DNA from: Polyangiaceae bacterium
GTDB taxonomy: Bacteria; Myxococcota; Polyangia; Polyangiales; Polyangiaceae
Length of the DNA stretch: 9,286 bases
Assembly: GCA_025936205.1 (NCBI GenBank)
Contig: JAICTU010000369.1
Coordinates: 1 to 9,286, forward strand
Direction: 5' to 3'
Positions 1,420-8,771 of the stretch are shown one piece after another. The first letter of the stretch is position 1. Every line of letters starts with the position of its first letter. A program made the translations under genes and the position numbers. Below the pieces are notes generated by a model that was given only the letters and a program-made list of their open reading frames with translations, searched no databases and was not told where the DNA came from.

Positions 1420-1821
1420 TCATCCTCCCTTCTTCGCGTTGGCCTCGGCGATCGCCTTGGGCACGGCCAGTGCCCAGGCCTCGCGCAATGGCGTCAGCGT
1501 GCGAACGACATCCGCGATCGGCTGCGCCGTCGCGCTGCGGTTCGCTTCGGACAGTCGCGAGAGCGCGAAGTCGTAGACGGCAGCGAGGTTTGCGCACAGC
1601 TCCGGCGACGCTGAATGGTCGAGCGCCAGCATCAGCTCGCTGATGATCGCGTGTGCCTTGCCGACCAGCTCGCGCCCGCGCGGTGCCTGCTGGTTCTCGA
1701 AGCAAACCTTCGCGCCATTCAGGAAACGGAACAAGCCATCATACAGGGCGAGCAACAGCTCACCAGGAGTCGATGTGTTCGCTTGGACTTGTCGATAGCG
1801 ATCCGCCGCTTTGCCGGACAT
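1420..1821 (-). CDS. fliS: FliS, flagellin export chaperone
   Basis: A 133-residue, all-helical protein of normal FliS length. FliS binds the C-terminal D0 helix of flagellin in the cytoplasm and keeps it from polymerising before export. The family block around TSTPGELLLALYDGLFRFLN (16-35), with the LYDG motif, is clear, and helices ANLAAVYDFALSRL and LTPLREAW follow. I chose ATG at 1821 because MSGKAADRY fits the family start; an in-frame TTG at 1833 would add four residues. The ribosome site is poor (GATGGA touching the ATG). Two ANGGA words, ACGGA (1844-1848) and ATGGA (1822-1826), lie before the start. The stop lies beside the methyltransferase start region. No fliD is present next to it, unlike many loci. 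Confidence 0.9.
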   Translation of the reverse strand: MSGKAADRYRQVQANTSTPGELLLALYDGLFRFLNGAKVCFENQQAPRGRELVGKAHAIISELMLALDHSASPELCANLAAVYDFALSRLSEANRSATAQPIADVVRTLTPLREAWALAVPKAIAEANAKKGG

Positions 1822-1887
1822 TCCATCAGTCAAAACGGAAGGATCCGTGGTCTCGATAGGGCGATGACCTTGGGGGTGTCAGGACGC

Positions 1888-1951: not shown

Positions 1952-2785
1952 TCAGCCGCGGAGCAGGTTCAGCGCCATCTGCGGCAGCTGGTTGGCCTGC
2001 GCCAACACCGACAGGCCCGCCTGCGACAGCACCTGGTTGCGGGACATCTGCGCCGTCTCGCCGGCCACGTCCACGTCGCGGATGCGCGAGTTGGCTGCCG
2101 ACAGGTTCAGACGCATGGTCTGGATGTTGCTCTGAGCAACTTCCAGGCGGTTCATCGCCGCACCGAACGAGGAGCGAGCTGTCGACACGTTCGAGATCGC
2201 GGTGTCGATCGTCGACAGCGAGGACAGCGCGTTGGCGGACGTGGTGCCCGAGAGCGCGACCGCAGATCCCGAGATGGTCGCCAGCGAAACGCCGCCGAGC
2301 GTCACCTTGATCTGATCCGAGCTCAACGCCTGGAGCCCCACCTGCAGCGTGATCGTGTTCGCGGTCGAGCCCAGGAGTTGCTTGCCGTTGAACTTGGCCG
2401 AGCCCTGGATGCGCGTGATTTCTTGCTGGAGCTGCGAAAACTCCGTCTGCAAGAAGCCGCGGTCCGTGCCCGTCAAGCTGCCGTTCGACGCCTGAACCGC
2501 CAGCTCGCGCATGCGGCCCAGGATGTTATGAACCTCGCCCAGCGAGCCTTCCGCCGTCTGCGCCATCGAGATGCCGTCGCCGGCGTTGCGCTCGGCAACG
2601 GTGAACGAACGGATCTGGCTCTTCAAGTTCTCGCTGATCGCCAAGCCTGCGGCGTCGTCCTTGGCCGAGTTGATGCGGAAGCCGCTGGACAGACGGTTGA
2701 AGCTGAGCTGGAGCTGAGACTGGTTGTAGCCGAGGTTCTTCTGCGCCTCCATCGAGGAGACGTTCGTTTGAATGAATAGTGCCAT
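1952..2785 (-). CDS. fliC: Flagellin (fliC1)
   Basis: A 277-residue flagellin made of the D0/D1 core. MALFIQTNVSSMEAQKNLGY starts D0, LSSGFRINSAKDDAAGLAI is at 32-50, RMRELAVQASNG at 91-102, and the C-terminal D0 helix ends AQANQLPQMALNLLRG. Residues 168-206 (from ATISGSAVALSGTT to STARSS) are very rich in Ser and Thr and form the exposed, possibly glycosylated part. It is a close paralogue of fliC2. The ATG at 2785 has a strong ribosome site. About 130 nt separate it from fliS, with a long stem-loop between, so fliS may receive only part of the flagellin transcription. Confidence 0.96.
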   Translation of the reverse strand: MALFIQTNVSSMEAQKNLGYNQSQLQLSFNRLSSGFRINSAKDDAAGLAISENLKSQIRSFTVAERNAGDGISMAQTAEGSLGEVHNILGRMRELAVQASNGSLTGTDRGFLQTEFSQLQQEITRIQGSAKFNGKQLLGSTANTITLQVGLQALSSDQIKVTLGGVSLATISGSAVALSGTTSANALSSLSTIDTAISNVSTARSSFGAAMNRLEVAQSNIQTMRLNLSAANSRIRDVDVAGETAQMSRNQVLSQAGLSVLAQANQLPQMALNLLRG

Positions 2786-2790
2786 GTGGC

Positions 2791-2803
2791 CCCCTTCCTT
2801 GGG
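2791..2803 (-). promoter_or_regulatory. fliC1 ribosome binding site within a candidate CsrA hairpin
   Basis: The minus strand reads CCCAAGGAAGGGG, then GCCAC and ATG. CCC (2803-2801) pairs with GGG (2794-2792), presenting the hexaloop AAGGAA. The core CAAGGAAG fits the CANGGANG CsrA consensus. The Shine-Dalgarno sequence GGAAGGGG overlaps it. The arrangement is the same as before fliC2, with one base changed in the loop. Confidence 0.6.
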
Positions 2804-2833
2804 TGGTTCGGCACCCCCCGAAGGTGGTGCACA

Positions 2834-2855
2834 GCGAGCACTTCATTGCGCTCGC
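2834..2855 (-). other. fliC1 leader stem-loop
   Basis: GCGAGC (2834-2839) and GCTCGC (2850-2855) form a perfect 6-bp stem with a 10-nt loop, about 50-70 nt upstream of the fliC1 ATG. It occupies a place similar to the two leader stem-loops of fliC2. No promoter that I can recognise lies in the 217-nt spacer. Confidence 0.4.
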
Positions 2856-2901
2856 AAGCCAAGTGAACGGAGCCGGGTTGGCGGCCTTGAACGCGTCCAG
2901 C

Positions 2902-2935
2902 CTCGACCGGCACCCCCTGAGGGTGAGCCGGCGAG
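2902..2935 (-). other. Stem-loop in the fliC1 leader region
   Basis: CTCG (2902-2905) and CCGGC-ACCC (2907-2915) pair with GGGT (2921-2924), GCCGG (2927-2931) and CGAG (2932-2935), with a bulged A2906 and a GA bulge at 2925-2926, around a CCTGA loop. It lies between the fliC2 hairpin and the fliC1 start. Its proximity to the preceding hairpin suggests a strongly structured fliC2-fliC1 spacer. Confidence 0.45.
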
Positions 2936-2960
2936 GTGGCGCGTGGGCTAGTTGTGCTGC

Positions 2961-2993
2961 ACGCGAGCCGGGTCGCCCCCCAGCGGCTCGCGT
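2961..2993 (-). terminator. GC stem-loop just after fliC2 (terminator-like, no U tract)
   Basis: On the minus strand ACGCGAGCCG pairs perfectly with CGGCTCGCGT around a 13-nt loop, beginning 10 nt after the fliC2 stop. The following bases (GCAGCACAAC) lack a T run, so intrinsic termination would be weak. It may reduce read-through into fliC1 or stabilise the 3' end of fliC2 mRNA. Pairing is certain; the role is inferred. Confidence 0.5.
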
Positions 2994-3002
2994 TTACCAG
3001 TA

Positions 3003-3833
3003 TTAGTGCAAGAGGCCGAAGGCCAGCTGCGGCAGCTGATTGGCCTGGGCCAGGACGGACACGCCGGCCTGGGTCAGCACCTGGTTACGAGACAGCTGGG
3101 CGGTCTCGCTCGCGACGTCGACGTCGGCGATGCGCGAGTTAGCAGCCGAGAGGTTCAGACGCATGGTCTGAATGCTGCTCTGTGCCACTTCGAGGCGGTT
3201 CATCGCCGCGCCGAAGGTGGAGCGCGCCGTCGACACGTTGCCGATCGCGGTGTCGATGGTCGACAGCGCCGCCAGGGCGTTGTCGGAGTTGCTGCCCGAG
3301 AGCAGCGCGGCACTGCCCGTGATGTCGGAGAGCGAAACGCCGCCCAGCTGGACCTGGATCTGGTCGCTGGAGGCGTCGTTCAGACCGACCTGGAGCGTGA
3401 CGGTGTTGGCCGTGGAGCCCAACAACTGCTTGCCGTTGAACTTGGCCGACCCCTGAATGCGGGTGACTTCCTTCTGCAGAGACGAAAACTCCGTCTGCAA
3501 GAAGCCACGATCTTCCGCCGTCAGAGGACCGTTCGAGGCCTGAACCGCCAGCTCGCGCATACGGCCGAGGATGCCGTGCACCTCGCCCAACGAGCCTTCA
3601 GCGGTCTGCGCCATCGAGATGCCGTCGCCCGCGTTGCGCTCCGCAACGTTGAACGACCGGATCTGCGACTTCAAGCTTTCGCTAATCGCGAGACCGGCGG
3701 CATCGTCCTTGGCCGAGTTGATGCGGAGACCGCTCGACAAGCGAGCGAAGCTCGACTGCAACTTGGCCTGGTTGGCTCCGAGGTTCTTCTGAGCAGATTC
3801 GGAGGCAACGTTCGTGTTGATATAAAGAGCCAT
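3003..3833 (-). CDS. fliC: Flagellin (fliC2)
   Basis: A 276-residue flagellin with D0/D1 only. The N-terminus MALYINTNVASESAQKNLGA, the signature LSSGLRINSAKDDAAGLAI (32-50), GRMRELAVQASNG (90-102) and the C-terminus AQANQLPQLAFGLLH are all typical. The RELAVQ segment is of the TLR5-recognised type of flagellin (family knowledge). It is much closer to fliC1 than to fliC3 and shares with fliC1 the leader CANGGANG element, so these two look like the products of a more recent duplication that included the leader. A strong GGAAGGGG ribosome site sits 7 nt before the ATG. A perfect GC hairpin lies 10 nt after the stop. Residues 140-205 are rich in Ser and are the likely surface and possible glycosylation region. 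Confidence 0.96.
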   Translation of the reverse strand: MALYINTNVASESAQKNLGANQAKLQSSFARLSSGLRINSAKDDAAGLAISESLKSQIRSFNVAERNAGDGISMAQTAEGSLGEVHGILGRMRELAVQASNGPLTAEDRGFLQTEFSSLQKEVTRIQGSAKFNGKQLLGSTANTVTLQVGLNDASSDQIQVQLGGVSLSDITGSAALLSGSNSDNALAALSTIDTAIGNVSTARSTFGAAMNRLEVAQSSIQTMRLNLSAANSRIADVDVASETAQLSRNQVLTQAGVSVLAQANQLPQLAFGLLH

Positions 3834-3840
3834 CTTCGGA

Positions 3841-3854
3841 CCCCTTCCGTGGGA
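3841..3854 (-). promoter_or_regulatory. fliC2 ribosome binding site within a candidate CsrA hairpin
   Basis: The minus strand reads TCCCACGGAAGGGG, then seven bases to the ATG. CCC and GGG can pair and leave the hexaloop ACGGAA, with a further U-G pair outside. The core CACGGAAG fits CANGGANG, the established CsrA/RsmE hexaloop consensus in which C and G close an ANGGAN loop. The Shine-Dalgarno sequence is GGAAGGGG, so a bound CsrA dimer would cover it. The stem is short, which is normal for these sites. Confidence 0.6.
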
Positions 3855-3859
3855 GAAGT

Positions 3860-3876
3860 GCGCTCGCTTTGAGCGC
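3860..3876 (-). other. fliC2 leader stem-loop 2
   Basis: GCGCTC-AAAGC-GAGCGC on the minus strand forms a perfect 6-bp stem with a 5-nt loop, one base downstream of the previous stem-loop and 6 nt before the candidate CsrA hairpin. Together the three elements would make the last 64 nt of the fliC2 leader largely structured. Confidence 0.5.
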
Positions 3877-3877
3877 G

Positions 3878-3896
3878 CGAGGGCTTATTGCCCTCG
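3878..3896 (-). other. fliC2 leader stem-loop 1
   Basis: On the minus strand CGAGGGC-AATAA-GCCCTCG forms a perfect 7-bp stem with a 5-nt loop, 45-63 nt upstream of the fliC2 ATG. It stands next to a second stem-loop at 3860-3876. Such leader structures often protect abundant flagellin mRNAs from decay; here this is inferred. Confidence 0.55.
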
Positions 3897-4179: not shown

Positions 4180-4285
4180 ATCGGGTGTTGTGACGCGGCC
4201 ATCGGGTTAGCCGCGGTAGGAAGTTGCTGCGAGAATCGGGTTACCCGCAGCAGATGTCACACGAGGCAGGAATCGGGTTACCCAC
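4180..4285. repeat. Four-copy ATCGGGTTA motif array with independent inverted arms
   Basis: On the plus strand ATCGGGT occurs at 4180-4186, ATCGGGTTA at 4201-4209, ATCGGGTTACCCGC at 4235-4248 and ATCGGGTTACCCAC at 4272-4285, with start-to-start steps of 21, 34 and 37 nt. The last three are enclosed by different inverted arms: CGCGGC/GCCGCG (4194-4199 and 4210-4215), TGCTGCG/CGCAGCA (4225-4231 and 4246-4252) and ATGTCAC/GTGACAT (4254-4260 and 4291-4297). The first copy can pair through CGGGTGT (4182-4188) with ACACCCG (4144-4150). A constant loop with unrelated stems suggests a structured RNA or a cruciform protein site. On the fliC2-sense strand the loop reads TAACCCGAT. Function unknown. Confidence 0.7.
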
Positions 4286-4490: not shown

Positions 4491-5321
4491 TTACTGCAAC
4501 AGGTTCAGCGCCAGCTCGGGCAGCTTGTTGGCCTGCGCGAGCACGGAGACGCCGGCTTGCGACAGCACCTGATTCTTCGACATCGTCGCGGTCTCGGTCG
4601 CGACGTCCACGTCGCGGATGCGCGAGTTGGCTGCCGAGAGGTTGAGGCGCATGGTCTCGATCGAAGAAATGGTGCTGTCGAGGCGATTCATGGAGGCGCC
4701 GTACTTGGCGCGCTCGGTGGAGACGATGCTGAGCGCGTTGTCGATGATGCCGAGCGCGGCGAGCGCGTTGTCGATGCTGGAGCCTCCGATCGCGTTGGCA
4801 CTGCCGGTGATCGCAGTGAGCCCGAAGCCGCCGAAGGTCAGAGTCAGCTGATCGGAACTCGCATCATCCAGGCCGATCTGGAACTGGATGGTCGAGACGT
4901 TGAGCGAGAGTAGATCCTTGCCGTTGAACTTGGCCGCGCCCTGGATGCGCCCGATCTCGGCCTTGAGCGCCTGATATTCGGTATCGAGAAAGCCGCGGTC
5001 CGTCTGGGTCAAGCTGCCATTGGCGCCCTGCATCGCGAGCTCGCGCATGCGGCCCATGATCGAGTGCACCTCGGAGAGCGCGCCTTCCGCCGTCTGCACC
5101 ATGCTGACCGCATCCTGCGCATTCCGCTCTGCGATGGTATAGGAGCGAATCTGCGTGCTCATGCTCTCGCTGATCGCGAGCCCTGCCGCGTCGTCCGCCG
5201 CCGTCACGATGCGCAGACCGCTCGACAGCTTGTCGAAGCTGGTGTTCAGCGCCGCGGTCGATTTCGCAAGGTTCTTCTGCGCCTGGAGCGATGGGATGTT
5301 GGTCTTGATTACTAGGGACAT
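4491..5321 (-). CDS. fliC: Flagellin (divergent copy, fliC3)
   Basis: A 276-residue flagellin lacking the variable D2/D3 domains; only the D0/D1 core is present. MSLVIKTNIPSLQAQKNL begins the N-terminal D0 helix, LSSGLRIVTAADDAAGLAI (32-50) is the flagellin signature, GRMRELAMQGANG lies in D1, and the C-terminus ends ANKLPELALNLLQ. It differs clearly from the other two copies: VTAADD replaces NSAKDD, and the central region (SLNVSTIQFQIG onwards) is distinct. It follows the Maf gene by 15 nt and probably shares its transcript. The ribosome site is weak (AGAGAAAG, 8 nt from ATG), and the CANGGANG element seen before the other two flagellins is absent. It may be a minor or differently timed filament subunit. 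Confidence 0.95.
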   Translation of the reverse strand: MSLVIKTNIPSLQAQKNLAKSTAALNTSFDKLSSGLRIVTAADDAAGLAISESMSTQIRSYTIAERNAQDAVSMVQTAEGALSEVHSIMGRMRELAMQGANGSLTQTDRGFLDTEYQALKAEIGRIQGAAKFNGKDLLSLNVSTIQFQIGLDDASSDQLTLTFGGFGLTAITGSANAIGGSSIDNALAALGIIDNALSIVSTERAKYGASMNRLDSTISSIETMRLNLSAANSRIRDVDVATETATMSKNQVLSQAGVSVLAQANKLPELALNLLQ

Positions 5322-5336
5322 GACGGCGTGCTTTCT

Positions 5337-7286
5337 CTATTGCTGTCGAGCGACGTTGGCGGCCAGCCGCGCCGCTCCTTCACGGAGCGCTTCTTCGAGC
5401 TCACGCGCCGCCGTCTCGACGGCGCTGGCAACTCGCGCGCTCCGCTGAGTTGCCTCTCTTGCTTCACGATGCGGCCCAGCAGGCATCTCCTCGGAGCTCT
5501 CCACCCGTGAGTGCAGGGCATCGTGAATTGCCTTGTGTGCCCAGGCATCCACGAGCGGACACTGGGCAACCGCCTCGCGGATCTCGAGCTCCGCCTCTTC
5601 CAGGCGGTCGTACGCCGGCGTCACGCGCCGCGGATCGCCGGTCAGCGTGACGCGCGAGGCGTGCTCGGCGAGGCGGCGGATGCGGCGTGACACGCGCCGC
5701 ACGCGCAGGCACGCATGGGCGTGCTTCTCGAGCCAGCGCAGGATCCGGGACGCCTCGATGGGCCTCCACAACTCGCGCGCCTTGCCTGCCATCTCACTGG
5801 CCTGAACGGGCTGCCGCTCCGGCAACTCCGCGAGCAGCTGCGCGAGGGGCAGGTCCTCGAAGCCGGGGATGTGCACGCCGCCCTCGGTGCAGTTGACCAG
5901 ACGCACGCTGCTGCCGGCCTTGTGCAGCAACTCGGCGCTGCGCCGGAACCAATCCTGGATGTTGGCGAAGCTCGCCGCGGAGTCGACCTCGCCCTGGCCG
6001 CCCCAGGCGGGTACCCGGCGGTGCGGCTCGCGCGGCCGCGCGATGCCCTGCTCCTCGCCGTGCACGCGCAACACCTCGTCGTTCCAGTCGAGATGCACCA
6101 GGCCATTCTCGTCGAAGCGGGCCTTCGAGCTCTCGTAGCCGGTGCCCTTCGCGTACGTCTTGCCCTCGGTGTACGCGAGGTCCTGCCCCACCAACACCAG
6201 CGGCGAGCAACCGAGGAAGCGCGCCAGCGAAAACGCCATGGTCGAGACACTGCCCGACACCGGCAAACCGGGCTGCCCGGTGAGCTCCTCCAGCGGAGCA
6301 TCGTACTGCGCGACCAGCTCGTGCACGGGCAGCAGCGGACCGGTACCCGTGCGCAGCGTATCGGGCGCGGCGGTCAGGCTGAAGGCCCGCACGGCGCGTG
6401 AGATGAAGGGCAGATCGCGCAGCTTGGTGGAAGCGTCGATGCTCTCGATGCAGGCCACCACCTGTGGCTCGACGCCGTGCTTGCCCAGCGACACGGCGCC
6501 CGAGTTCGTGGCAAACACGATGCCCTTCTGCGCGGCCTGGTTCAACAGCGCGATGTTCTTGTCGAGCGAAGGGCCAGCGCCGATGATGAACGCCGGCACG
6601 CCCTGGTACTGCCCGCGCAGCGTCAAAAACGGCGGCGCGTCCGTCAACAACTCGACGTTGGCGATGATGTCCTGGATCCAGACCTTGCCGCGGTTGTTGA
6701 ACGTGGCCTTGGAGACCAACGTGCGCTGCAGCAAGCTCGGGATGACCTCCACGAACGCCGCCGCTTCCTCCGGGTAGGCATGGTAGTAGCCTGGAGTCGT
6801 CAGCACCCGCACATCCAGCACGCGCGCCGCGAACTCACGCCACACCCGCATCAGGTCTGCCACGCCGTTGACGATGATCACGCTGCCGAGATCCAGCGGA
6901 CCGTACTCCAGCAGCGTGCGCAACAGCGCGACATCCGGCTCGTAGACGACGATCGGCACCTTGCACATCGCGCGCGCGATGCGCGGCAGCTGCCCGGCTG
7001 CCATACCGAAGATCACGACGACGTTATCGTCCGGAATATCGTGCAGCTGGGCGAAGACCTCGTTGGTCGCGAGCTCCATTCCGAAGCGCCGGCTGCCGTC
7101 ACGCAGGTACGGAGTGCCGTCCGCCTGCAGCTCCACCCTGCCGCGTGGCTCGGCATCGCGGATCGCTTGCCGCGTCTCCTGCGGGATCGGCAGCGCCTGG
7201 AGGTTGGCCTCCAGAAAGTACGTCCGCCGCTGCGCGCTTCTGTCCACCAACGGCGGCGCGAGCGAAGCAACGGCGGCCGCGCTCAT
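5337..7286 (-). CDS. Maf/DUF115 family motility accessory factor, probable flagellin glycosyltransferase
   Basis: A 649-residue protein of the MAF_flag10 / DUF115 (MptE-like) family, members of which transfer pseudaminic or legionaminic acid to Ser/Thr of flagellin in the cytoplasm before export. Visible family marks are the N-terminal region with VVVIFGMAAGQLPR (89-102) and VVYEPD (113-118), then NNRGKVWIQDIIANV (197-211), the nucleotide-binding-like IIGAGPSLDKN (234-244), VGQDLAYTEGKTY (366-378) and NCTEGGVHIPGF (465-476). Residues from about 500 to the end are helical and Arg/Glu-rich, as in other Maf C-termini. It overlaps csrA by 4 nt and is followed by fliC3 after 15 nt, placing a modification enzyme next to its likely substrates. 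The sugar donor and acceptor are inferred; no nonulosonic-acid biosynthesis genes are visible here. Confidence 0.85.
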   Translation of the reverse strand: MSAAAVASLAPPLVDRSAQRRTYFLEANLQALPIPQETRQAIRDAEPRGRVELQADGTPYLRDGSRRFGMELATNEVFAQLHDIPDDNVVVIFGMAAGQLPRIARAMCKVPIVVYEPDVALLRTLLEYGPLDLGSVIIVNGVADLMRVWREFAARVLDVRVLTTPGYYHAYPEEAAAFVEVIPSLLQRTLVSKATFNNRGKVWIQDIIANVELLTDAPPFLTLRGQYQGVPAFIIGAGPSLDKNIALLNQAAQKGIVFATNSGAVSLGKHGVEPQVVACIESIDASTKLRDLPFISRAVRAFSLTAAPDTLRTGTGPLLPVHELVAQYDAPLEELTGQPGLPVSGSVSTMAFSLARFLGCSPLVLVGQDLAYTEGKTYAKGTGYESSKARFDENGLVHLDWNDEVLRVHGEEQGIARPREPHRRVPAWGGQGEVDSAASFANIQDWFRRSAELLHKAGSSVRLVNCTEGGVHIPGFEDLPLAQLLAELPERQPVQASEMAGKARELWRPIEASRILRWLEKHAHACLRVRRVSRRIRRLAEHASRVTLTGDPRRVTPAYDRLEEAELEIREAVAQCPLVDAWAHKAIHDALHSRVESSEEMPAGPHREAREATQRSARVASAVETAARELEEALREGAARLAANVARQQ

Positions 7287-7591
7287 ACGGGCTTCGGATC
7301 CTTCGCCGGGCCGGCGCCTGGTCGGCGCAGCACCGTCACGGAAATGGCGGCCAGCGGCGTGCCCTCGGCGGGCCGCGCGGGGGTCAAAGCCCCTGCATCC
7401 GCTACGCTACTTTGAGCAGCAGAGCGATTCGCTTCCTCGATGGAGTCGCGAACCTCTCCGCGCAAAACCGTCAGACCGCGCGGGGCGCGAATACCGAGCT
7501 TGACGGAACTCCGATGGACTTCGGTAACGACGAGCTCGATCTCTTCGCCGATCGAAACGCGCTGTCCCTTGCGGCGGGAAATCACCAGCAT
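7283..7591 (-). CDS. csrA: CsrA/RsmA carbon storage regulator with extended C-terminus
   Basis: A 102-residue RNA-binding translational regulator. Residues 1-57 are a canonical CsrA fold: MLVISRRKGQ start, IGEEIELVV at 14-22, VKLGIRAPRG at 30-39 and VLRGEV at 42-47. R44, the family's key RNA-contact residue, is present. CsrA dimers bind ANGGA in mRNA hairpin loops, usually over the ribosome site. Most CsrA proteins have 60-75 residues; here about 45 further residues, rich in Ala, Pro and Gly, follow. The stop TGA overlaps the Maf start as ATGA, so the two are probably translationally coupled. Candidate targets, the fliC1 and fliC2 leaders, lie in the same locus. FliW, the CsrA antagonist in many flagellar loci, is not in this window. 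The start is fixed by the family N-terminus. Confidence 0.93.
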   Translation of the reverse strand: MLVISRRKGQRVSIGEEIELVVTEVHRSSVKLGIRAPRGLTVLRGEVRDSIEEANRSAAQSSVADAGALTPARPAEGTPLAAISVTVLRRPGAGPAKDPKPV

Positions 7592-7892: not shown

Positions 7893-8771
7893 TCAGAACG
7901 TGTCGTTGTTGCCGGTGCCGAGCGTCGTCCGTGCCACGGCGATCGCTTGCTGCAGCGTGGTCGACAGCTGATTCAGCTCGCTCAGCGCGCTGAACGGATC
8001 CACGTCGCCCAGGGTGCTGCGGCGGCGATCGAGCTCCAGCGCCGTGGTCGATAGTGCCTCGTCGGCGGAATCGAGCCGGTTCATGATCAGGCCGGTCTTG
8101 GCCTGCGTGCGCACGATCTGGGCGCGCGACGTCTCGAGGTCGGTCAGCGTGCGGGCCACGCCATCGCCATCGTTCGACTCCAGCGCAGCGCGCAGCGCGC
8201 TGAGCGTCGCATAGGCATCCGCGCCGCCGGCGCTGCTGAAGGCCTCCGCTCCGGTGACGCTGACGGACGTGGTCACCCCCGGCGAGATCTCGACCTCGTG
8301 CTGGGACGCATCTCCCTGGTAACTACCGTTTTCGTCGAGCGCGGCCTTGTTGGTGAGGTTGCCCGAGAACAGGAAGCCACGGCTGCCGCGCGTGTTGGCA
8401 GTGGAGATGAACTGCTTCTGGATGGTCTCCACTTCGTTGGCGAGCATGCGTCGATCGTCGGCCGTGAGGCTGCCGTTGGAGCCCTGGATGGCGAGCTCCT
8501 TGGCGCGCACCATCAGATCAGAGGCTTGCGCCAGGCCGGCTTCGCTCAGCTCCAGGTCGGAGCGCACCGTGCTGATCGTCGAGCGGTAGTCGGCGGTGCG
8601 CGCCGACTGAGCGGCGATGCGCGTCAGGCGCGAGGCCGCCGCCGGATCGTCGGAAGGAGCGCCGATCTTGCTTCCTGATGAGATCTGCCCCGTCAGCGTC
8701 GCCTGCCGCGAACGCAGCGCAGACAGCGAGCGTTGCACGGAATCAAAGCGCATGTTGTCGGCGATTCTCAT
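7893..8771 (-). CDS. flgL: FlgL, flagellar hook-filament junction protein 3
   Basis: A complete 292-residue protein of usual FlgL length. FlgL is exported and sits between FlgK and the first flagellin subunits. The start MRIADNMRFDSVQRSL is typical (family MRISTxMxF). Residues 30-46 contain ISSGSKIGAPSDDPAAAS, the conserved flagellin-like N-terminal block with PSDDP. Residues 91-103 (KELAIQGSNGSLT) and RGFLFSGNLT at 131-140 are further FlgL marks, followed by the G-Y-x-GD segment at 149-153. The C-terminus is a helical D0 region. The start at 8771 is supported by GAAGGA five bases upstream. It follows flgK by 25 nt and is almost certainly co-transcribed with it. A small hairpin lies directly after the stop. 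Confidence 0.94.
   Translation of the reverse strand: MRIADNMRFDSVQRSLSALRSRQATLTGQISSGSKIGAPSDDPAAASRLTRIAAQSARTADYRSTISTVRSDLELSEAGLAQASDLMVRAKELAIQGSNGSLTADDRRMLANEVETIQKQFISTANTRGSRGFLFSGNLTNKAALDENGSYQGDASQHEVEISPGVTTSVSVTGAEAFSSAGGADAYATLSALRAALESNDGDGVARTLTDLETSRAQIVRTQAKTGLIMNRLDSADEALSTTALELDRRRSTLGDVDPFSALSELNQLSTTLQQAIAVARTTLGTGNNDTF

Follow-up and report, generated by a model that had tools for sequence, protein, structure and literature searches.

In Bacillus subtilis, the leader of the flagellin gene hag carries the CsrA sites BS1 and BS2. A CsrA site on the Shine-Dalgarno (SD) sequence of the flagellin mRNA, antagonism by FliW, and partner switching have been described for this system (PMC7652899). 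The flaA leader of Campylobacter jejuni has two sites with ANGGA in both loops, and mutating GGA in SL1 (to AAA or UGA) or in SL2 raised the Kd of CsrA 4- to 10-fold (PMC4894983); C. jejuni also has a second flagellin, flaB, whose level is hardly altered without csrA. The parts of these papers drawn on here document direct repression of flagellin by CsrA in both organisms, as a sequence-only reading of the locus described below had stated. One of the RNAs bound by RsmE in the present comparison is presumably hcnA. With this RNA and RsmZ, RsmE binds A(N)GGAX loops, in which a C-ANGGAX-G hexaloop on a stem resembles those of fliC1 and fliC2; the sections of that paper used here give 5 to 8 nt as the range of loops bound and mention a paper on pentaloops, Lapouge 2013 (PMC4005645). 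L2 and L4 of CsrA lie near the GG pair, according to the part of a further study cited here (PMC6692469). Both the two-site CsrA flagellin leader and GGA loops of 5 to 8 nt are already known from these portions of the literature.

The window, by which we mean the whole 9286-nt stretch of DNA analyzed, is a minus-strand flagellar gene cluster that resembles the flaA system in having an ANGGA stem-loop that covers the main flagellin's ribosome site, a stem-loop upstream of it, csrA (with fliW in relatives), and a further flagellin gene. On the comparisons reported here, the hairpins over the SD sequences of fliC1 and fliC2 are very probably CsrA operators of these mRNAs in a FliW-CsrA-flagellin checkpoint from which fliC3 would be exempt. 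Unlike those of C. jejuni, the upstream loops are AAUGAA (fliC1) and AAUAA (fliC2) rather than ANGGA, and an extra hairpin lies between both sites. In contrast to B. subtilis, the upstream loop lacks GGA and csrA is located between flgL and an MptE-like gene.

Gene content of the window and its relatives

The genes run in the order flgK-like gene end, flgL, csrA, MptE-like gene, fliC3, fliC2, fliC1, fliS, and a methyltransferase/TPR gene. At the cluster edge, the gene end with PF06429 (minus strand) is one that we take to be flgK, and the gene at 7893..8771 (minus strand), with flagellin N and C domains, is presumably flgL, given its position and size. The csrA gene (7283..7591, minus strand; PF02599, 62.5 bits), which the sequence-only reading had correctly placed in this locus, encodes a CsrA of 102 aa with a long C-terminal tail and, in the alignment, Ile at position 4. 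Between csrA and fliC3 is the MptE-like gene (5337-7286, PF01973), a type of gene associated with the glycosylation of flagellin. The flagellin genes fliC1 (1952..2785) and fliC2 (3003..3833), both on the minus strand, contain PF00669 and PF00700; fliC3 (4491..5321, minus strand) is a flagellin paralogue, and fliS (1420..1833, minus strand; PF02561) encodes the flagellin chaperone. The top matches to fliC2 were Polyangiaceae metagenome-assembled genomes (MAGs), L001 (83% identity) and L002 (69%). FliW is present in G001, the genome of L001 and nearest relative, and in all six of the first relatives searched. Rfam at gathering scores gave no match anywhere in the window, and among 15 matched plasmid records none covered >80% of the gene.

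Hairpins over the ribosome binding sites of fliC1 and fliC2

The fliC1 SD hairpin, CCC-AAGGAA-GGG (2792..2803, minus strand), and the fliC2 SD hairpin, UCCC-ACGGAA-GGGG (3841..3854, minus strand), were identified by sequence and motif count, and each presents ANGGA in the loop of a hairpin that covers the flagellin SD, with the caveat on the fliC1 fold given below. The fliC2 stem is lengthened by CUUC/GAAG (3855-3858 / 3834-3837). The start codons are at 2785 (fliC1) and 3833 (fliC2) on the minus strand, and the hairpin loops begin 15 and 17 nt, respectively, before the ATG; the CCC/GGG-flanked ANGGAN hexaloop that had been picked out 15-17 nt before the ATG was thus recovered in both leaders. 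The pattern CCCANGGANGGG (CCC-ANGGAN-GGG) occurs twice in the window, once over the ribosome site of fliC1 and once over that of fliC2, compared with a mean of 0.01 in 200 dinucleotide shuffles, none of which reached two. The shared string CANGGANG is indeed present in both leaders, as had been claimed, but it is uninformative alone: the window holds nine matches versus 6.1 expected, 31 of the 200 shuffles had as many, and a string at chance level is therefore by itself no evidence. No such hairpin lies over the SD in the fliC3 leader.

The fliC2 hexaloop falls within the MFE structure of a 79-nt leader, with a pair probability of 0.29-0.33. For the fliC1 hexaloop, the pair probability is 0.87-0.88 in a 37-nt piece and 0.00-0.01 in seven leaders of 52-102 nt, where a rival pairing wins; at 102 nt, the hexaloop fold is 10.6 kcal/mol worse than the MFE. 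A competitor in the predicted folds is the fliC1 middle hairpin GCACCACCUUCGGGGGGUGC (2811..2830, minus strand), located between the two sites of this leader. Accessibility of the SD by folding was tried as a discriminator and rejected, as the mean unpaired fraction of the SD zone hardly differed between leaders with the hairpin (0.50), those without it in CsrA/FliW genomes (0.58), and those of genomes without the system (0.56).

Distribution of the hairpin with CsrA and FliW

We drew 144 genomes from the order of G001 and searched them for flagellin, which was found in 61, of which 42 had FliW and 41 had CsrA. The resulting order sample comprises 158 starts, including those of the window and four other loci; 12 of these were left out of the comparison (4 of L008 and 8 with <44% identity or <30 nt upstream). 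The phylum sample consists of one flagellin region each from 40 further genomes, starts with <30 nt upstream again being left out. A flagellin match was found in 114 of 282 phylum genomes, some of which also belong to the order sample; each sample is a draw, and the phylum sample may include further members of the order. A leader was scored as having the hairpin if it contained a C-closed ANGGAN loop on a stem of at least 2 bp or a C- or U-closed ANGAN loop on at least 4 bp, and if this loop began 11-24 nt ahead of the start. This single rule, the same for all groups, replaced an earlier one that was set after viewing the leaders and missed hexaloops with weak stems (5/33 in the phylum sample, versus 19/33 under the final rule), and counts therefore differ between the rules.

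Where CsrA and FliW are both present, the hairpin was found in 80/112 leaders and 37/39 genomes of the order and in 19/33 leaders and 18/23 genomes of the phylum sample, leaving 32/112 and 14/33 leaders without it. With neither protein, it was found in 2/21 leaders of the order and 1/11 of the phylum sample (3/32 together). These three matches come from G046 and G365, and missing contigs are the likely cause, because the flagellins of G046 are identical to those of the CsrA-containing G008 and the G365 assembly, at 1.8 Mb, is probably incomplete; with both genomes set aside, the count is 0/29. In the order, the single leader with CsrA and no FliW has the hairpin (1/1), as do both leaders with FliW and no CsrA (2/2). 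The phylum sample has 14 leaders with CsrA and no FliW, none with the hairpin (0/14). They belong to eight genomes without a FliW match (L282, L291, L305, and others), whose CsrA may serve other targets.

The hairpin is present in 4/7 leaders of L002, L005, and L006 and in 2/3 of the window. Among SD-matched nonflagellin starts of the same regions, 6/537 conform to the rule. In loci L007 to L080, mostly of Burkholderiales and counted irrespective of CsrA/FliW status, 1/68 first starts satisfied the earlier rule, at -31. By our own count of the table, of the sites with the pentaloop SD pattern, 39/63 in genomes with CsrA or FliW are flagellin starts, compared with 0/16 in genomes with neither protein.

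Pairing of the flanks and phylogeny

Conservation beyond the SD core, which the sequence-only reading had offered as a check, was assessed in 125 distinct CsrA/FliW leaders with ANGGAN near the start, using the most upstream site and demanding no stem; these include pentaloop leaders, in which A4-N5-GGAG fits ANGGAN. Flanking positions 1 to 3 pair in 95, 83, and 72 of the 125 leaders, exceeding the means of 52.7, 50.0, and 39.5 for reassorted arms, and none of 500 shuffles was as high; at positions 4 and 5, pairing is not above reassortment. Among 19 leaders without the system, positions 1 to 3 pair in 8, 3, and 4, as in shuffles. For ANGAN sites picked irrespective of any stem, pairs 2 to 4 are above reassortment, and the closing pair (60/132, versus a reassorted mean of 55.6) is not.

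In the flagellin tree, all 18 rows of the fliC1/fliC2 group have the hairpin and all 8 rows of the fliC3 group lack it, which suggests that the fliC3 group may represent flagellin paralogues that are not under the brake, much like flaB of C. jejuni. The tree shows a minimum of five exchanges between hexaloop and pentaloop, and both occur among the tandem flagellins of G086. Five independent contrasts between FliW and the hairpin gave no discordant case and a mean of 4.5 (one row per genome) or 3.9 (all rows) concordant ones, with a median sign-test p of 0.0625 and 0.125, respectively; they are consistent with a link between FliW and the hairpin, but they are few. With these few contrasts, the hairpin is kept beyond the SD core where CsrA/FliW occur and is absent where they do not. 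That it tracks CsrA and FliW across genomes and that its flanks pair beyond shuffles support the proposal, made from the letters of the window, that the hexaloops are candidate CsrA sites.

Upstream hairpins

The fliC1 leader contains an upstream SL1-like hairpin, GCGAGCGC-AAUGAA-GUGCUCGC (2834..2855, minus strand), with a stem of 8 bp that folds alone at -13.7 kcal/mol. It was overlooked in the sequence-only reading, whose remark that one clear site per leader is visible needs changing for fliC1, although the loop of this second hairpin, A-N-N-G-A-N, is without GGA. A flagellin leader of G001 has an identical stem with an AUUGAA loop, and the hairpin sits where relatives carry a second site. 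In the fliC2 leader, sequence and folding revealed a middle hairpin, GCGCUC-AAAGC-GAGCGC (3860..3876, minus strand), and at the SL1 position an upstream hairpin, GAGGGC-AAUAA-GCCCUC (3879..3895, minus strand), whose loop has neither the GGA nor the GA motif. Neither AAUGAA of fliC1 nor AAUAA of fliC2 thus has the GGA of the upstream loop in the two-site flaA/hag type of leader.

Members of the order without a CsrA-FliW fusion are here called the window's kind. Their set of 62 leaders from 33 genomes comprises the hairpin leaders of the nonfused order genomes, those of the window, and a further four leaders belonging to L002, L005, and L006. The GA-loop pattern was first spotted by eye and tested afterwards, with shuffles and leaders without CsrA/FliW as controls. 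In the window's kind, 29/62 leaders and 19/33 genomes have an upstream C-ANGAN-G or C-ANNGAN-G without GGA, such as GUC-AUGAU-GAC (G078, G097), GGGC-AAUGAC-GCCC (G122), and GGGC-AACGAC-GCCC (G090); shuffles of the same 62 leaders gave a mean of 0.40 and a maximum of 2. Such GA-only loops occur upstream in 1/43 leaders without CsrA/FliW, in 1/47 leaders of the fused-CsrA genomes and the phylum sample, and in 5/50 paralogues without an SD hairpin in CsrA/FliW genomes (0.2 in shuffles). They are not explicable by the SD, because there is no ribosome site at this position. Upstream GGA loops are found in 25/47 leaders of the fused-CsrA genomes and the phylum sample (2.4 in dinucleotide shuffles), which corresponds to the two-site arrangement of flaA in C. 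jejuni, in 5/62 leaders of the window's kind (2.3 in shuffles), and in 5/43 leaders without CsrA/FliW (1.3 in shuffles). Across 106 upstream hairpins, A, G, and A occupy the motif positions of the loop in 34 (30 without GGA), and the next triplet in 7. An anti-anti-SD ahead of the pentaloop, seen by eye in G090 and G057 only, was dropped as a general feature.

Since the GGA mutants of C. jejuni bind more weakly in the part of that study used here (PMC4894983), canonical CsrA should read GA-only loops poorly; given the weaker binding of SL1 with GGA changed to UGA, the AAUGAA loop of the window would be dead for it, yet such loops are kept in the window's group. The RsmE-bound loops in the sections cited of PMC4005645 likewise all contain GGA, whereas ANGAN and ANNGAN lack it unless the base at N happens to create one.

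GA-type loops and residue 4 of CsrA

Pentaloops, mostly CUCC-ANGAN-GGAG or CUCU-ANGAN-GGAG, make up 45 of the 80 hairpins of the order sample. Over all starts under the earlier rule, the loops were AAGAA (21), AGGAA (8), ACGAA (6), AUGAA (6), AAGAG (5), AAGAC (3), and AGGAG (1), of which AGGAA and AGGAG still contain GGA. A1, G3, and A4 are retained, whereas all four bases occur at N2 and three at N5, a variation like that of N and X in ANGGAX but with one G fewer. A scan free of loop sequence found some hairpin over the SD at 92/132 starts in CsrA/FliW genomes. By our own count, 64 of these have motif loops, the remaining loops being singletons except for one pair; 46 of the 49 five-nucleotide SD loops were ANGAN. 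In genomes with neither protein, 8/21 starts had a hairpin and none had the motif.

An SD loop with GA only (ANGAN, one G of GGA lost) occurs somewhere in 24 of the 33 genomes of the window's kind. Counted per genome and not per leader, 16 of these 24 also have a GA-only upstream loop, and a single genome has GGA without GA upstream. The window has GGA over both SDs and AAUGAA upstream of fliC1. Position 4 of CsrA is Ile, Val, or Phe in 21/24 GA-type genomes, among which the window is placed by its upstream loop, and in 6/37 GGA-type genomes (G001, G003, G048, G117, G141, and L002, by our reading of the alignment). No single residue of CsrA separates the classes strictly, and a one-residue switch was rejected; Leu4 is suggestive, with phylogeny as a confounder, and its association is a lead only, because the GA and GGA types largely belong to different clades.

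From these patterns, there is close to an even chance, though slightly less, that the RNA code of CsrA in the nonfused order members shifted from C-ANGGAN-G to C-A(N)NGAN-G, both leader sites following; that the change goes with the loss of Leu4 is a lead only. If so, the window would be an intermediate, with GGA over the SDs, GA upstream of fliC1, and Ile4 in CsrA. In CsrA recognition, GGA is taken as a fixed core and used for target prediction; a large group with both flagellin sites dropping one G but retaining the A, the GA, and the closing C-G (or U-G) pair would mean that the CsrA code is able to evolve, and GA-type targets would escape GGA-based searches. Some SD hairpins of L006 (Nannocystaceae), G343 (L280), G256 (L279), and G226 (L286) have ANGAA or ANGAAA loops, perhaps a separate loss of GGA.

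Alternative explanations

Any strong SD includes GGA, and with CANGGANG alone at chance level, the hairpins might be ordinary AGGA-type SDs with chance CCC/GGG flanks in GC-rich DNA. We regard this as extremely improbable, as just 6/537 SD-matched starts of the same regions and 0/29 flagellin starts with neither protein (G046 and G365 set aside) conform to the rule, and the flanks pair beyond shuffles. An RNA switch that hides the SD without any protein, responding to temperature or ribosome access and merely co-occurring with CsrA/FliW, would fit the location of part of the SD in the 3' arm, clearest in CUCC-ANGAN-GGAG. It is nonetheless very unlikely: the SD zone is unpaired to a similar degree with the hairpin and without the system (0.50 versus 0.56), a bare stem needs no ANGAN loop with N2 free such as that of 46/49 five-nucleotide SD loops, similar loops recur upstream away from any SD, and the absence of the hairpin parallels that of CsrA/FliW.

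A more serious rival, plausible but rated below even, concerns the GA-only loops, which CsrA may not read at all: the pentaloop class would be bound at A4-N5-GGAG with the stem opened, and the upstream loops would serve another factor or mRNA stabilization. The CUCC/CUCU-ANGAN-GGAG form does spell ANGGAN at A4-N5-G-G-A-G, and in the portion cited of a C. jejuni SELEX study, 2/51 ligands had AnGGA in a stem and all contained GGA (PMC6692469). Stem opening leaves unexplained, however, why A1 and G3 are kept while N2 is free and why C-A(N)NGAN-G occurs in 29/62 upstream regions, and it does not account for the SD and upstream sites both having one G fewer in 16/24 genomes (counted per genome).

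Proposed mechanism

With the SD hairpins as CsrA operators, free CsrA would bind the SD loops of fliC1 and fliC2 and keep ribosomes off, probably also touching the upstream hairpin and perhaps bridging the two. Flagellin export would release FliW, which would take CsrA away so that translation could restart; fliC3, which has no hairpin, would escape the brake. In many sampled genomes of the window's kind, the ANGGAN loop would have become A(N)NGAN, perhaps jointly with CsrA. For the organism of the window, we infer CsrA binding and repression, as well as the presence and role of FliW, from these comparisons.

Among the matches listed in literature searches, with most subscription journals outside their scope, we found no account of CsrA loops with GA only, of flagellin regulation by CsrA in Myxococcota, or of a fusion between CsrA and FliW; these negatives do not extend to PMC12316311, the one paper among those matches that holds CsrA, Myxococcota, and flagellin. 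The genome set offers natural absences of CsrA/FliW, CsrA-FliW single chains, and flagellin paralogues without hairpins, and the flagellin brake is thus open to comparative study in Myxococcota, a phylum known largely from MAGs.

CsrA-FliW fusions and an intergenic repeat

In 13 of the 61 order genomes with flagellin, including G007 (L222), G008 (L220), and G016 (L219), csrA and fliW form one open frame. Three fused proteins carry both Pfam domains, as do 46/49 database matches of one of them; 8 of these 46 have an organism in the name (4 Sandaracinaceae and 4 other Myxococcales, Myxococcota, or Deltaproteobacteria). Judged by its domains, the fusion is CsrA joined to its own antagonist.

Between fliC3 and fliC2, at 4200-4283, AATCGGGTTACCC occurs three times in the window, with 2 mismatches in one copy, at spacings of 34 and 37 nt, compared with 0.03 expected. 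This array looks operator-like, and the relative L001 has three similar copies at 9628-9713, spaced by 36 and 37 nt.
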